Made by a program: the position numbers and the translations under genes. From Caryophanales bacterium (GTDB taxonomy: Bacteria; Bacillota_I; Bacilli_A; RFN20; CAG-826), in assembly GCA_016287465.1 (NCBI GenBank), contig JAEEWP010000003.1:1-44899 (forward strand): a stretch of 44,899 bases of DNA. The letters run 5' to 3'. The notes beneath the pieces are model-generated. The model was given only the letters and a program-made list of their open reading frames with translations, searched no databases and was not told the origin of the DNA. Position 1 is the first letter of the stretch, and each line of letters starts with the position of its first letter. Below, piece after piece: positions 9,043 to 17,691 of this stretch.

Positions 9043-9935
9043 GTCGTTAAATAGGTATTAGCATTCAAGGCAGCAATCGCTCCATCGTTGCAAGCGGTGG
9101 TGAGCTGCCTTATTTTTTTGACCCTGCAATCACCGGCGGCAAAGATGCCTTCGGTCTTGGTGGCCATATTCTCATCGGTAACGATGAAGCCTTTCTCCAA
9201 ATCAACAACATTGGCGAATCTCTCGTTATCCGGAACCTGTCCGATGGCGACGAAGACGCCATTGATCTCAATCGTCATTGGCTTCTTGTCTAATCTGCCT
9301 TCGAATGAGACGCTTTCGACCTTATCGGTACCGTTGAAGCGGACGGAATTGTAGTTGTGGTAGATCGAGACGTTTGGAAGGGCCTTCAAAGCGGTCACAA
9401 GGATATCGTCGGCGAAGAACTTGTCGAAGAGGGTGACAACGTCAACGTGACGGGAGGTTTTTGCTAGAAGCAAAGCGTACTGGAGTGCGCTATTGGCATC
9501 GCCGATGACCATCGTGTCTTTGCCAGTGTAGAAAGCGCCATCGCAAACAGCGCAATAAGAAACGCCTTTGAGGTTTTCTCCAGGGATGCCAAGATGACGG
9601 TGTTTGACACCGCTAGCAATGATAACAGCTCTACCTTCGTAGTCGCCATATTCGCAATGGGCAACGAAGTTGTCGCCTTTCTTTTCGATGGATTTGACCT
9701 CGTCCATTTCGAACTCAGCACCTAAAGCGGTGATCTGCTCGAAAAGGTTATTGGACCATTCAAGTCCGGAGATCTCTTTGATGGATGGGAAGTTCTCAAC
9801 TCTTGGAGAGTCGGCGATTTGACCGCCGAACGCTTGCCTCTCGATGAGCTTGACGCTTCTGCCAGCTCTAAGCGAATAAAGGGCCGCAGTCATTGCTGCA
9901 GCCCCTCCGCCTATGATTAAGATATCAGGCAGCAT
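9033..9935 (-). CDS. trxB: Thioredoxin reductase
   Basis: FAD GGGAAAMTAALYSLRAG; redox CAVCDGAFY; GIFAAGDCR. Confidence 0.93.
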   Translation of the reverse strand: MLPDILIIGGGAAAMTAALYSLRAGRSVKLIERQAFGGQIADSPRVENFPSIKEISGLEWSNNLFEQITALGAEFEMDEVKSIEKKGDNFVAHCEYGDYEGRAVIIASGVKHRHLGIPGENLKGVSYCAVCDGAFYTGKDTMVIGDANSALQYALLLAKTSRHVDVVTLFDKFFADDILVTALKALPNVSIYHNYNSVRFNGTDKVESVSFEGRLDKKPMTIEINGVFVAIGQVPDNERFANVVDLEKGFIVTDENMATKTEGIFAAGDCRVKKIRQLTTACNDGAIAALNANTYLTTHS

Positions 9936-12315
9936 TTCCGCCTTTCACCTTCTGGATGTAACCTCTGATGTCGGAAGCGTTCTCGTACGCATCATAGGCC
10001 TCACCATTTGGAACTAAGAGAGTCGGCGCATTGGTGATACCAAAGGCAGTGGTCGTCTCTTTGTTTGAAACAGCGTCAATCTGCTCATATTCGATGCCTT
10101 CTTTATCAAGCATCATCTTCGCCATCTTGCAGTTTGGGCAGGTTGGAGAAGTGAAGAGCATGACTTTGGTCACTTTTGGAGCAGAAGCCTTCTCTTCGTG
10201 CTCGTGGCACTCGCAAGCGCTGTCGTGAGCGTGTGGACGGCTGTTCTCGTTTGGAATGTAGGTCTTACGATCCTTGTATTCCTGGGCTTTGCCATCGTTC
10301 CAGTTCTTAACTGGACGGTAGTAACCGGTGATACGGGACCAGACTTCAGCTTCTTTTCCACAGATTGGGCAGGTGTGGACTTCACCATTGATGTAACCGT
10401 GATCCTGGCAGATCGAATAGGTTGGGGACATGGTGTAGTAAGGAAGCTTGTAGTTCTCAGCGATCTTACGGACGAGCTTCATGCAGCTCTCCCAGTTTGG
10501 AAGACGCTGGCCCAAGAAGGTGTGGAAGACGGTGCCAGAGGTGTAAAGGGTCTGGAATCTGTCTTCGATGTCAAGGGCGGCGAAGATATCGTCGGTATAA
10601 CCGACTGGTAAGTGTGAGCTGTTGGTGTAGTAAGGGGTCTCGCCATTTCCGCCCGCAGTGAGGATGTCTGGATATCTCTCACGGTCATGTTTAGCAAGAC
10701 GGAAGGCGGTGGACTCGGCTGGGGTGGCTTCGAGGTTGTAGAGATCGCCATATCTCTCCTGGTAGTCGGAGAGGCGGGCTCTCATGTGGTTGAGAACCTC
10801 AACGGTGAAGTCCTGAGCAGCCTGAGTGGTGAGGTCGCTTCTGACCCAACGGGCATTGAGGCAAGCTTCGTTCATGCCGACAAGACCGATGGTGGAGAAG
10901 TGGTTCTTGAAAGAGCCAAGGTAATGCTTGGTGTATGGATATAAGCCAGCTTCAAGGAGTTTGGTGATGGTCTTACGCTTGACGCTGAGTGAGCGGGCGG
11001 CGATATCCATCATGCCATCGAGTCTGGCATAGAAGTCTTCCTTGTTGGTGGCAAGATAGGCGATACGTGGCATGTTGATGGTGACAACGCCGACGGAACC
11101 GGTGCTTTCGCCACTTCCGAAGTAACCACCGGATTTCTTTCTGAGCTCACGGAGGTCAAGACGGAGACGGCAGCACATGGAACGGACATCGCTTGGTTTC
11201 ATATCGCTGTTGATGTAGTTGCTGAAGTATGGGGTGCCGTACTTGGCAGTCATTGTGAAGAGGAGACGGTTGTTCTCGGTGTCGGACCAATCGAATTCTC
11301 TGGTGATGGAATAGGTTGGGATTGGATACTGGAATCCACGGCCATTGGCATCGCCTTCGATCATGACTTCGATGAAGGCTTTGTTGATCATATCCATCTC
11401 GGCTTTGCAATCACCATATGTGAAATCCATCTCTTTGCCACCGACGATGGCTGGGAGGTTCTTAAGATCCTCTGGGACGGTCCAGTCGAGGGTGATGTTG
11501 GTGAATGGAGCCTGGGTTCCCCAACGGGATGGGGTGTTGACGCCGAAGATGAAGGACTGGATGCACTGCTTGACCTGCTTGTAGGTAAGGTTGTCAACCT
11601 TAACGAATGGGGCGAGATAAGTATCGAAGGAACTGAATGCCTGAGCTCCCGCCCATTCGTTCTGCATAATGCCAAGGAAGTTGACCATCTGGTTGCAAAG
11701 AGTGCTCAAATGGCCAGCTGGGGTAGAGGTGATTTTGCCTGGGACGCCGCCTAAGCCCTGCTGAATAAGCTGCTTAAGGGACCAACCAGCGCAATAACCG
11801 GTAAGCATGGAAAGGTCGTGGATGTGGATGTCGGCGTTGCGGTGGGCATCACCGATTTCCTTATCATAGACCTGGCTTAACCAGTAGTTGGCGGTAACGG
11901 CGCCGCTGTTCGAAAGGATAAGACCACCGACGGAATAGGTGACGGTGCTGTTCTCCTTAACACGCCAGTCGCTGATCTTGAGATAGTTATCGACGACGGT
12001 GGCGTAGTTGAGCTCGGTCTTCTTGATTTCACGGATATCCGCATGTTTCTTACGGTAGTCCATGTAGCTGTGAGCGACATCGACATAGCCAGCCTGGATC
12101 AAGACGATTTCAACGCTGTCCTGGATGTCTTCGATGTTCACGATGCCATTATCGACCTTCTTATTGAACTCCGCTGTGACACGGAGAGCTAAAAGCTCAA
12201 TGATGTTCTTATCTGCTTCTTTGTGTTCTGCGACGAAGGCTCTCTCAATAGCCTTTTCGATTCTCGATAAATCAAATTCAACGATCGATTCATCTCTTTT
12301 TCTAACTTTCAACAT
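9925..12315 (-). CDS. nrdD: Anaerobic ribonucleoside-triphosphate reductase with C-terminal glutaredoxin-like domain
   Basis: N-terminal ATP-cone, glycyl-radical region SRITGYYRPVKNWNDGKAQEYKDR, then KVMLFTSPTCPNCKMAK; RBS aaaggag before ATG at 12315 (ORF opens at 12339). Confidence 0.95.
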   Translation of the reverse strand: MLKVRKRDESIVEFDLSRIEKAIERAFVAEHKEADKNIIELLALRVTAEFNKKVDNGIVNIEDIQDSVEIVLIQAGYVDVAHSYMDYRKKHADIREIKKTELNYATVVDNYLKISDWRVKENSTVTYSVGGLILSNSGAVTANYWLSQVYDKEIGDAHRNADIHIHDLSMLTGYCAGWSLKQLIQQGLGGVPGKITSTPAGHLSTLCNQMVNFLGIMQNEWAGAQAFSSFDTYLAPFVKVDNLTYKQVKQCIQSFIFGVNTPSRWGTQAPFTNITLDWTVPEDLKNLPAIVGGKEMDFTYGDCKAEMDMINKAFIEVMIEGDANGRGFQYPIPTYSITREFDWSDTENNRLLFTMTAKYGTPYFSNYINSDMKPSDVRSMCCRLRLDLRELRKKSGGYFGSGESTGSVGVVTINMPRIAYLATNKEDFYARLDGMMDIAARSLSVKRKTITKLLEAGLYPYTKHYLGSFKNHFSTIGLVGMNEACLNARWVRSDLTTQAAQDFTVEVLNHMRARLSDYQERYGDLYNLEATPAESTAFRLAKHDRERYPDILTAGGNGETPYYTNSSHLPVGYTDDIFAALDIEDRFQTLYTSGTVFHTFLGQRLPNWESCMKLVRKIAENYKLPYYTMSPTYSICQDHGYINGEVHTCPICGKEAEVWSRITGYYRPVKNWNDGKAQEYKDRKTYIPNENSRPHAHDSACECHEHEEKASAPKVTKVMLFTSPTCPNCKMAKMMLDKEGIEYEQIDAVSNKETTTAFGITNAPTLLVPNGEAYDAYENASDIRGYIQKVKGGNAA

Positions 12316-12347
12316 AACTCTGCTCCTTTCGCTTCGCACAGTAGGGA

Positions 12348-13725: not shown

Positions 13726-14610
13726 TTATTTAATGGAGTCCACAATGTGCTTTGCGTAGACGCCAGCGATGTTCTTTCCGGTGATTCTTTCAATCTCCTG
13801 CAAGAAGGCATTTGAGTTGACCTCACAGAGGACTGGATTCCCGTCTTTGTCATCTAAGAGATCGACTCCGCAATAATCCAGCTTAAGGATCTTGGCGGCT
13901 TTCTCGGCGGCCTCTTTAAATAATTCTGGGAGATCTATCAGTTCGCCATGGCCGCCCTGAGCGACATTGCTTCGGAAATCGCCGTTATCGTTGCACCTCT
14001 TCATGGATGCCACGACCTTTCCGTTGATCACGATGATGCGGAAATCATGCCCTTTGCTGCTCTCTATAAACTCTTGGTATAAGTGGGCGCCGAACTTATG
14101 GCTCTTCTCAAATTCTACGAGTTCATCGAAGTTTTTGATTAAATAGACCTCTTTTCCTAAGCTTCCGTAATTGTCTTTTGCCACGATTGGGAAGGATAGT
14201 TCATTGGCCACTTCTTTGATAAAGCCGTCGTCATCGCTTCCGACATAGTTAAGTGGGGCAGAGATGGTCTTTGGCATCTTGATTCCAGCATTAGACAGAG
14301 CGATGTAGGTTAGCATCTTGTTATCGCAAAGCCTGATCGCCTCCGCGCTATCAAAAAGCTTTATGCCGGCCTTCTCGAGCATGTAGGCGACATATTCATC
14401 CTTATCTAAATACAAAACGAAGTCATATTTGGACATTTCTGAAGCCAAAATATCACCGTTTGATCCAATTAAAGCCAAAATTTCGGCGTTGGTTTTGTAG
14501 TCTAACGAAACGCCTAAAGAACCCAGTTCTTCTTTCATTCTTTTGTAGTAGTGAATAGACGCTGGAGTTTGGATATAAGCGTTCAGAATCGCTAAGCCAG
14601 TCTTTAACAT
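13726..14610 (-). CDS. RimK-like ATP-grasp ligase
   Basis: FPIVAKDNYGSLGKEVYL, HDFRIIVINGKVVASMKR, LCEVNSNAFLQEIE. Confidence 0.8.
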   Translation of the reverse strand: MLKTGLAILNAYIQTPASIHYYKRMKEELGSLGVSLDYKTNAEILALIGSNGDILASEMSKYDFVLYLDKDEYVAYMLEKAGIKLFDSAEAIRLCDNKMLTYIALSNAGIKMPKTISAPLNYVGSDDDGFIKEVANELSFPIVAKDNYGSLGKEVYLIKNFDELVEFEKSHKFGAHLYQEFIESSKGHDFRIIVINGKVVASMKRCNDNGDFRSNVAQGGHGELIDLPELFKEAAEKAAKILKLDYCGVDLLDDKDGNPVLCEVNSNAFLQEIERITGKNIAGVYAKHIVDSIK

Positions 14611-14659: not shown

Positions 14660-14675
14660 TGACAGTATAATGTCA
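14660..14675. promoter_or_regulatory. Inverted repeat TGACA-N6-TGTCA covering the nadE -10 box (TATAAT 14666-14671)
   Basis: Perfect 5-bp arms; in the 79-bp divergent spacer. Confidence 0.6.
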
Positions 14676-14689
14676 AAGAGGTAATTATT

Positions 14690-16792
14690 ATGAATGACAT
14701 TAAACCAATCACATTACTACGAAATACGGATAAGTTAAGGAAGGAATTAGAGGAGAACGAAGGTAGGATTATTATCACCAAAAATGGCCAAAAAGACTTC
14801 GTTATCCTAACTGACGAGGCTCACCAGAAACTCTTGAATGAAGGGGGATCTACTAAAGAAAAGTCAAGATTTGCAAGGATTTCTGGCAAAAATGAGCTTA
14901 GTGACCCGCTTGGTTATGTTAAGGTTGCAGCTCAATCGATCAATGTAGAGATTGCTGGAATCACCCACAACAAAGAAGAAATAATCAAGGCTGTTAGCGA
15001 GGCAAACAGTGAAGGTGTCAAAATTCTTGTTTTGCCAGAATTATGTCTTACTTCTGCCACTTTAGGTGATTTGATATTCAGCAAAACAATCGAAGAATTG
15101 GTTGAGAAAGCCCTTGTTGAGCTTAAAGAAATCTCAAAAGATAATGACCTTCTATTCACCGTTGGCGCTCCAATCAAAACCAATGGAAAACTTTATAGTT
15201 GCGGTGTCGTTTATTATGGCGGAGAGATCCTTGGTATCGTTCCAAAAGCCTATCCATCTGACAATAGATATTTCTCTGAGGGACCGAAAGAGGGTTACAT
15301 CAATCTTCTTGGAGAAAAGATCCCATTTGGAACCAATTTGATCTTCGTTGACTCTAATTACCCAAAACTCAGAATCGCTGTTGAGCTTTCTGAAGACATC
15401 TCCAACATTGAGGTCCCTTCCGCGAAAGCGTCACAGGCAGGCGCGAATGTCATTCTTAATTTATGTGCCACGCCTACACTTATTGGCTCGGCCGAATACA
15501 CGACAAGCCTTTTGAAGACGGCTTCAGACAAAATGACTGCCGCCTACATCCTTGCCAACGCTGGTGATGGCGAAAGCACCACCGACATGATCTTCGGCGG
15601 CCACAACATCATCACCGAGAACGGAAAAATTCTTTGTGAGTCAGCCCCATTTAAGATGGAAAAGGCCGTTTCTGAAATCGACATTGAACTTCTTGAGGCC
15701 GAAAGAAACAGAAACCATTCATTCAAAGCCAAATACGAAAACGATTATCAAACGATCTTCTTCTCGATGCCTTTGGAAACTCCTAAAGCGTTGACCCGTC
15801 ATTACGCGAAAAATCCTTTCATCCCAGAAACCAAAGAAACTGACCTCGAAAGAGTAAATCTCATTCTCACCATGCAAAGCATGGCCCTTGTGAAAAGACT
15901 CAAAACCGTCCATCAGAAGAAAGTGGTCTTAGGTTTGTCTGGCGGTCTTGATTCAACTCTTGCGCTTCTCGTTTCCGTAGAAGCCTTCAAAAAACTTGGT
16001 TATGACCTGAAAGACATCATCGCCATCACTCTTCCGTCATTCGGAACAAGTAAGAAAACGCATAACAACGCAGTCCTTCTTTCAGAATCACTTGGCGTCT
16101 CCTTCCGCGAAATCAACATCGGAGAGTCGGTGCGTTTACATTTCAAGGACGTTGGGCACGATGAACAAAACCACAATGTCGCCTATGAGAACGCCCAAGC
16201 TCGCGAGAGGACCCAAGTATTGATGGATCTTGCTAACGATGAGGATGCTTTGATGGTCGGCACCGGCGACTTAAGCGAAGCTGCTCTTGGCTGGTGCACC
16301 TATAATGGTGACCATATGTCCTTCTATGACCTCAACATCTCCGTTCCAAAGACTTTGGTTAGATATGTTGTTGAGGGATATGCGATCATGCATCCAGAAG
16401 CGAAGACTGCTTTGCTTGGTATCATCGACACACCAATCAGCCCAGAGCTCTTGCCACCTTCCAGTAAAGGAGAGATCGTCCAGAAGTCCGAAGATAAAGT
16501 TGGGCCATACGAACTCCAGGATTTCTTCATTTTCCATTATCTCCGTTATGGATTCTCACCGAAGAAGCTCTATTTCCTTGCGCAGCAAGCCTTCAACTAT
16601 AAGTACGACAACGAGACTTTGAAGAAATGGTTAGGAACCTTCTTCAAGCGTTTCTTCCAGAGCCAATTCAAGAGAAACTGCACTCCTGATGGCATAAAAA
16701 TCGGCACCGTTGGTCTCTCACCTAGAGGTGACCTTGTGATGCCAAGTGATGCAATTTGTGAGGATTATCTTAAAGAAATCGAATCACTCTAG
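14690..16792 (+). CDS. nadE: NAD+ synthetase (glutamine-dependent architecture) with N-terminal Phd/YefM-like domain
   Basis: Nitrilase-like domain (VLPELCL, VPKAY, VELSED) plus NH3-dependent synthetase domain (LGLSGGLDSTLAL); about 70 extra N-terminal residues; RBS aaagagg. Confidence 0.93.
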   Translation: MNDIKPITLLRNTDKLRKELEENEGRIIITKNGQKDFVILTDEAHQKLLNEGGSTKEKSRFARISGKNELSDPLGYVKVAAQSINVEIAGITHNKEEIIKAVSEANSEGVKILVLPELCLTSATLGDLIFSKTIEELVEKALVELKEISKDNDLLFTVGAPIKTNGKLYSCGVVYYGGEILGIVPKAYPSDNRYFSEGPKEGYINLLGEKIPFGTNLIFVDSNYPKLRIAVELSEDISNIEVPSAKASQAGANVILNLCATPTLIGSAEYTTSLLKTASDKMTAAYILANAGDGESTTDMIFGGHNIITENGKILCESAPFKMEKAVSEIDIELLEAERNRNHSFKAKYENDYQTIFFSMPLETPKALTRHYAKNPFIPETKETDLERVNLILTMQSMALVKRLKTVHQKKVVLGLSGGLDSTLALLVSVEAFKKLGYDLKDIIAITLPSFGTSKKTHNNAVLLSESLGVSFREINIGESVRLHFKDVGHDEQNHNVAYENAQARERTQVLMDLANDEDALMVGTGDLSEAALGWCTYNGDHMSFYDLNISVPKTLVRYVVEGYAIMHPEAKTALLGIIDTPISPELLPPSSKGEIVQKSEDKVGPYELQDFFIFHYLRYGFSPKKLYFLAQQAFNYKYDNETLKKWLGTFFKRFFQSQFKRNCTPDGIKIGTVGLSPRGDLVMPSDAICEDYLKEIESL

Positions 16793-16824: not shown

Positions 16825-17691
16825 ATGAAAAAGAAAAAAGAAGAAGTTCAGTCTGAACAGCCAGAGTTAGAACAGCCAGAGTTAGAACAACCGGTTGAAG
16901 AACCGAAGGAAGCTGAAGAACCAAAAGAGGTCGAAGAAGCTTCTGAACCTGTCGCCGAAGAAGAGGAACCAAAGAAGGAAAAGAAGGGAATGCCTCTTGT
17001 CCTTAAGTTCATCATCTTTGAGCTCATCACCCTCATCATCGCTTTAGGCGCACATTTCTGCTTGCTCCAGTTCGTTGCTCCTCTTATGGAATTAAACGAA
17101 GTCTTGGAATGGGCGATCATGACAGTCGGCGCATTTGTACTTTACTTAGTCGCCGGTTATCTCTTTAACCATCTCATCGTCTTCAAAGGCAAAGGAAAGA
17201 CCACTTTCCCGAAATTCCTTTTGAGCGCTTTCCTTGGATGGGTCATCTGCATGGCACTTATCCATCTTGGCGTCTTCCTTACTAAACTTATCGTTCCAAC
17301 CAACCCTCTCCATTACAGCCTTACCGCTCTTAGCATCGGCCACGTCATCGCTCATGGTGGCAAATCCACCCCAAGTGGACTTGGAATCCTTGCCATCGCT
17401 CTTGTTATCACGATGGTCTACAGCTTCTTGATCAGATACTTCTTCGTCTTCAGAGGCGAGAAAGCCGTCAAGAAAGAAGAAGAGGTCGTCGAAGAAGAGC
17501 CAAAGGAAGAGAAATATCTTACCCACGCTTCCTTCCGCCAGATCGTCAAAGAGGAACTCGACAAGTTCTATACATCAAAGAAGAAATACGTCTACCATAG
17601 CCAAGCTCAATCCATCATCGATGAAGAAATCGATGTGTACGATAAGAAGCACGGCAAAAAGGAAGAAGAGAAAAAAGAGGAAGAAAAATAA
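16825..17691 (+). CDS. GtrA-like membrane protein with Glu/Pro-rich N-terminus and charged C-terminal tail
   Basis: About 4 TM; YLFNHLIVFK and SFLIRYFFVFR resemble GtrA motifs; tandem repeat QPELEQPELEQP. Confidence 0.5.
   Translation: MKKKKEEVQSEQPELEQPELEQPVEEPKEAEEPKEVEEASEPVAEEEEPKKEKKGMPLVLKFIIFELITLIIALGAHFCLLQFVAPLMELNEVLEWAIMTVGAFVLYLVAGYLFNHLIVFKGKGKTTFPKFLLSAFLGWVICMALIHLGVFLTKLIVPTNPLHYSLTALSIGHVIAHGGKSTPSGLGILAIALVITMVYSFLIRYFFVFRGEKAVKKEEEVVEEEPKEEKYLTHASFRQIVKEELDKFYTSKKKYVYHSQAQSIIDEEIDVYDKKHGKKEEEKKEEEK
16858..16892 (+). repeat. 15-bp in-frame tandem repeat (cagccagagttagaa, two full copies plus a diverged partial)
   Basis: Encodes QPELE QPELE QP. Confidence 0.75.

Follow-up and report, generated by a model that had tools for sequence, protein, structure and literature searches.

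An antitoxin-type DNA-binding domain on NAD+ synthetase and a predicted operator in the promoter of its own gene

The NAD+ synthetase (NadE) encoded in the 44,899-nucleotide stretch of DNA analyzed here (the window) begins with about 50 residues that have the Phd/YefM antitoxin fold, and their in-frame fusion to the enzyme is confirmed. Comparisons with related small-genome bacteria make it highly probable that a Phd/YefM domain and its type of operator were captured once by nadE in the ancestry of a single bacterial order, and that the fused NadE represses its own promoter. If so, an essential housekeeping enzyme can come under the control of a domesticated part of a toxin-antitoxin system, namely a DNA-binding domain with its operator, which would provide one answer to the question of what becomes of chromosomal antitoxins.

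A Phd/YefM domain in frame with NadE

A preliminary description of this DNA proposed an antitoxin-like N terminus that continues without interruption into NadE, is preceded by the ribosome-binding site AAAGAGG, and has no toxin gene beside it, and each of these observations was borne out (Table 1). One continuous frame of 700 amino acids begins with the residues quoted in that description, and the neighbors are a RimK-like gene and a gene for a membrane protein rather than a toxin. A downstream translation start near residue 75, which had been raised as grounds for doubt, was not found. The ATG at 14690 is the sole ATG in the first 140 codons of the stop-to-stop frame, and the only alternative in-frame start noticed before NadE is a TTG codon at residue 49 (14834). 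Elsewhere in the window, an anaerobic ribonucleotide reductase-like protein (9925-12339, minus strand), named by sequence reading, has a C-terminal glutaredoxin/thioredoxin-like extension (TSPTCPNCKMAK).

Table 1. Features of the nadE region, in window coordinates
Feature	Position	Strand	Remarks
RimK-like ATP-grasp gene	13726-14610	-	Divergent neighbor of nadE
Predicted operator TGACA-gtataa-TGTCA	14660-14675	+	TGACA 14660-14664, TGTCA 14671-14675; 11 bp (one helical turn) apart
Probable -10 TATAAT	14666-14671	+	Between and overlapping both operator boxes; read from sequence
Shine-Dalgarno-like AAAGAGG	14675-14681	+	8 bases before the start codon; read from sequence
Fusion ORF	14690-16792	+	700 aa, continuous
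Phd/YefM-like DNA-binding domain	14690-14839	+	Residues 1-50; profile, fold, conservation
Variable linker	14840-14908	+	Residues 51-73; located where antitoxins have their toxin-binding tail
NadE-type NAD+ synthetase	14909-16792	+	Nitrilase-like then synthetase domain, stop codon included; NF002730, PF00795, PF02540
Ser234 codon TCT	15389-15391	+	Aligned with the nucleophile Cys of the glutaminase
Lysine/glutamate-rich membrane protein	16825-17691	+	Neighbor downstream of nadE

The profile check suggested for residues 1-75 gave a mixed answer for the window protein on its own. Residues 12-41 match PF02604 (E = 0.0018 with a 75-aa query and 0.0011 with a 59-aa query), and the domain alone scores 19.2 bits, under the Pfam gathering score of 29.8, such that this single-sequence match is only suggestive. 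The identity of the domain is settled by its relatives and by its predicted fold. Among 23 nonredundant fused relatives, 22 match PF02604 (best E 8.9e-10), and a profile made from nonredundant fused members picks up Rv2865, Phd, and YefM among PDB entries. A PDB search with the domain as a single sequence yielded no match, whereas the profile and fold comparisons succeeded. AlphaFold models the domain with strands at about residues 4-6, 26-31, and 34/35-40 and helices at about 7-22 (split at residue 12 in the full-length model) and 42-51, with a pLDDT of 81 when the domain is modeled alone. The best Foldseek match to this model is the YoeB-YefM complex on 26-bp DNA (6l8e; probability 0.99, E 0.058), and the other top matches are YefM, RelB1, and Phd chains, including Phd-DNA complexes (E about 0.06-0.3). 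The very small size of the domain accounts for these modest E-values. The full-length prediction yields the anticipated Phd/YefM-like fold, then a low-confidence linker, and then NadE.

Residues I7, R11, K31, N32, and G33 of the domain are invariant in the 23 nonredundant fusions, and a motif alignment places Arg11 and Lys31 opposite R10 and R31 of Escherichia coli YefM, two residues that YefM requires to bind DNA (PMC4803016). Pairwise dN/dS values are 0.00-0.11 for the domain (in close relatives, no more than about 0.015) and 0.02-0.14 for the NadE part. Purifying selection on the domain is strong and comparable to that on NadE. The linker of about 20-30 residues is relaxed, with dN/dS up to about 1; it shows no conservation in the alignment, and model confidence is below 50 at residues 52-66.

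The remainder of the protein had been described as a normal NadE, which holds for its family membership and overall length but not for its glutaminase. NCBIfam NF002730 matches residues 74-699 with 714 bits (cut-off 473), Pfam PF00795 and PF02540 are both matched, and the SGGLDS P-loop is retained. The glutaminase catalytic triad of glutamine-dependent NAD synthetase is Cys-Glu-Lys (PMC6946656). In the window protein Glu117 and Lys186 are retained and the Cys is replaced by Ser234, a substitution that the window species shares with its close relatives (VELSEDIS) and that is accompanied by a shortened loop nearby. The Cys is retained in 57 of the 67 fused members, and a few others have Ala, Gly, or Ser. 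Because the synthetase half is intact while the glutaminase Cys has been replaced, the enzymes of the window clade are probably ammonia users.

The predicted operator of fused nadE genes

The two boxes of the predicted operator are inverted copies of one another, and they flank a probable -10 element that a simple consensus promoter scan did not select. No good -35 element was seen in the window nadE promoter. When pairs of TGNCA boxes are sought at all spacings, mean mismatches fall only at 11 and 22 bp in fused promoters, with no peak in unfused ones, although the middle box is in part an extended -10, and so some of this periodic signal is promoter. Exact 11-bp pairs, with boxes defined as TGN[CT]A, occur in 30 of 54 fused promoters and in 20 of 40 promoters of stand-alone Phd/YefM genes. 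None occurs in the 107 unfused nadE promoters, 28 of which come from the order, and shuffled sets of the fused promoters average 0.3 and never exceed 3. The consensus of the 54 nonredundant fused promoters is about TTTTGACATAATTATGCTATAATTATGTCA. Scored with a matrix derived from the promoters that it scores (one run left each promoter out of its own score), fused promoters have a median of 19.1 (n = 67), whereas unfused promoters have a median of -4.9 and a maximum of 9.6 (n = 107).

The same matrix, trained on nadE, finds its sites in front of stand-alone antitoxins. Stand-alone antitoxin operons with RelE/ParE-like partners score 30.9 (L279), 30.2 (L280), and 28.9 (L248), and such operons found both inside and outside the order score as high as nadE promoters or higher. 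The window promoter has two clear boxes only and a modest score of 13.0. Three fused loci of families f3 and f8 (L032-L034) contain no exact TGNCA pairs and resemble the wider consensus. Many fused nadE genes (L010, L013, L014, and L021) might be expressed from leaderless transcripts, as their start codons lie some 7-10 bases past the -10 and have no Shine-Dalgarno sequence.

TGNCA-N6-TGNCA occurs at 13 places in the 1.27-Mb genome that contains the window, and the nadE promoter is the only one that does not fall within an ORF (120 codons or more). A wider regulon in this genome was rejected, as the 12 other two-box matches all fall inside ORFs. A strict three-box pattern has nine matches in 147 genomes, seven of them at fused nadE promoters. 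There is also a site within nadE itself (15033-15059, plus strand; TGCCA-N6-TGTCT-N6-TGCCA, in 11-bp register) that scores 15.3, compared to 13.0 for the promoter. It is nearly unchanged synonymously in eight close species, but other segments of nadE are equally conserved. This might be an auxiliary operator or a chance match.

Two other functions for the upstream region were considered and set aside. An RNA element or riboswitch is not indicated, given that the region has no Rfam match. Likewise, the operator does not appear to serve the divergent rimK gene. This RimK-like gene is kept beside nadE in the window's genus and in one other genus of the family, whether nadE is fused or unfused, and it still adjoins nadE in four loci (L046-L049) from which both the operator and the Phd domain are gone.

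Distribution, origin, and proposed mechanism

The fusion was found at 67 loci, each from a different species and all from one order, in a set of mostly incomplete genomes that includes the window's genus and other families. Among 395 genomes of the class, every long-frame fusion belongs to this order, and elsewhere in the class the domain occurs by itself, as a protein of some 60-130 aa. A scan of genome contigs covered the top 80 out of over 500 relatives, and none of these loci was fused. Two loci labeled unfused (L007 and L008) are merely cut by contig ends. In a tree of the NadE part, constructed by a quick method that gives moderate support values, a branch with support 94 separates the fused proteins from the outgroups and most unfused members of the order. 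This topology fits a single origin. The phylogenetic survey that had been proposed places the fusion in 67 sampled species, all from a single order, and points to one origin.

Two lineages that lack the domain are nested among the fused proteins, namely L184 and L046-L049, and both are also without the operator. These cases weigh most in the argument because many of the unfused comparison nadE genes may sit in operons without their own promoter. The NadE proteins of L046, L047, L048, and L049, which belong to the same genus, are roughly 560-577 aa long, and their N-terminal half is unrecognizable as the usual glutaminase. With its conserved DNA-contact residues, the operator-like boxes in its own promoter, and the joint loss of domain and operator, the N terminus fits the earlier idea of a DNA-binding-type module. 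The genome that contains the window also encodes an ordinary Phd-PIN (VapC-like) toxin-antitoxin pair (L001, 983-1623, minus strand).

The nadE gene of another lineage (L198, 166-2241, minus strand) encodes an N-terminal HTH_3 (Xre-type) domain (E 1.7e-9) in place of Phd/YefM, and the palindrome ACCCATTGGGT is located directly before its -10 box TATAAT. This case, from one genome that is 66% complete and on a long branch, is a lead toward an apparent second, independent capture of a DNA-binding domain by NadE. If the capture is independent, a self-repressing NAD synthetase would be a recurrent solution.

Taken from these comparisons, the most economical reading is very probably negative autoregulation. 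An ancestral nadE would have captured an antitoxin DNA-binding domain together with its matching operator, and the fused NadE would now bind its own promoter through the borrowed domain. Each box might be bound by a dimer, with cooperativity across boxes provided through the NadE oligomer. Repression, by steric block of the -10, is favored over activation because the operator overlaps the -10.

The best surviving alternative is a ligand-sensing regulator, in which the NaAD, NAD+, ATP, glutamine, or ammonia state of NadE alters its affinity for DNA, so that it would be a sensor as NadR is and not just a homeostat of its own level. NadR is itself a fusion of an HTH domain with NAD-pathway enzymes that responds to NAD and ATP (PMC12421817), and glutamine-dependent NAD synthetases are strongly coupled between subunits and can be octamers (PMC6946656), which suits paired 11-bp boxes. 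Nevertheless, no sequence feature connects the domain with the active site, the variable, low-confidence linker makes tight allostery less likely, and simple autorepression explains all of the data. Ligand sensing is therefore offered only tentatively. The same caution applies to its fullest form, a speculative fifth kind of NAD regulator in which NadE would respond to the state of its substrate or product and gate its own transcription through a domesticated antitoxin domain, with cooperativity over 11-bp boxes set by the oligomer.

It is improbable that the domain merely dimerizes or orders NadE subunits and has lost DNA binding. Phd/YefM N-terminal domains dimerize and NadE works as an oligomer (PMC6946656), but such an assembly role leaves unexplained the invariant DNA-contact residues, the confinement of the operator to fused genes, its match to stand-alone antitoxin operons, and the joint loss of operator and domain. 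Still less plausible is a trans-acting antitoxin that neutralizes a distant toxin and ties survival to NadE. Ordinary Phd/YefM and Phd-PIN pairs do exist in the order, the latter in the window genome (L001), but an unconserved linker replaces the toxin-binding tail, no toxin gene is adjacent, and the Phd protein of this genome belongs to another subtype, which is linked to PIN and has an antitoxin of its own. A vestige, or an annotation artifact with a true start near residue 75, is hardly credible, since the TTG at residue 49 and the subthreshold Pfam score of the window protein are set against a frame that has no ATG from 14690 to well inside NadE, the occurrence of this fusion across 67 species, purifying selection that acts on the domain as strongly as on NadE, and a predicted operator directly upstream of the long start.

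Comparison with known systems

The fused NadE resembles Phd/YefM type II antitoxins (PF02604; E. coli YefM and P1 Phd) in fold, key basic residues, and the N-terminal position of the domain. It differs in that the toxin gene and toxin-binding tail are absent, which makes a role as an antitoxin unlikely, and in having a metabolic enzyme as its C-terminal part. The YefM operator has TGTACA cores spaced 12 bp center to center over the -10 (PMC7730913). Fused nadE promoters likewise have short palindromic boxes in pairs across the -10, separated by roughly one turn with a pitch of 11 bp, and the stand-alone Phd/YefM members of the class have the same boxes at 11 bp. Compared to glutamine-dependent NadE (type F NAD synthetase), residues 74-699 are alike over their whole length; the extra N-terminal domain and, in the window clade, the Cys-to-Ser change with its shortened loop are the differences.

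Four types of repressor are known for NAD synthesis: NadR, NiaR, NrtR, and NadQ (PMC12421817). The fused NadE is like the last three in its predicted transcriptional control of NAD synthesis, but these are separate regulators with other folds, NrtR and NadQ being Nudix-related and NiaR having a 3H domain. The NiaR 3H domain was found in none of 98 genomes of the order, and autoregulation by NadE is thus a proposal for how NAD supply might be controlled in bacteria that apparently lack NiaR. The candidate system is compact, consisting of one protein, an operator of ~16-27 bp, known DNA-contact residues, and lineages that have lost domain and operator jointly. To our knowledge, no NAD regulator acts in this way, through an antitoxin domain on NAD synthetase and an operator in its own promoter, and in a literature search that covered only a minority of subscription journals, no paper describing a Phd/YefM-NadE fusion was found.

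The nearest precedent in design is NadR of the Enterobacterales, which also has an N-terminal DNA-binding domain on NAD-metabolism enzymes and acts as a repressor (PMC12421817). NadR joins an HTH domain to NMN adenylyltransferase and ribosylnicotinamide kinase, none of which were found by domain searches in the window protein, and it represses nadA, nadB, pncB, and pnuC. Unlike NadR, the fused NadE combines an antitoxin fold with NAD synthetase, and no intergenic target other than its own gene was found. The earlier claim of a new kind of metabolic-enzyme/regulator fusion must be narrowed to this extent: the antitoxin module on NadE stands, whereas the fusion of a DNA-binding domain to NAD-pathway enzymes was already represented by NadR. 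BirA and PutA are also enzymes that repress genes of their own pathways through their own DNA-binding domains, and they differ from the fused NadE in folds, pathways, and effectors. Among such proteins, the fused NadE would be an enzyme-repressor fusion newly built from an antitoxin module.
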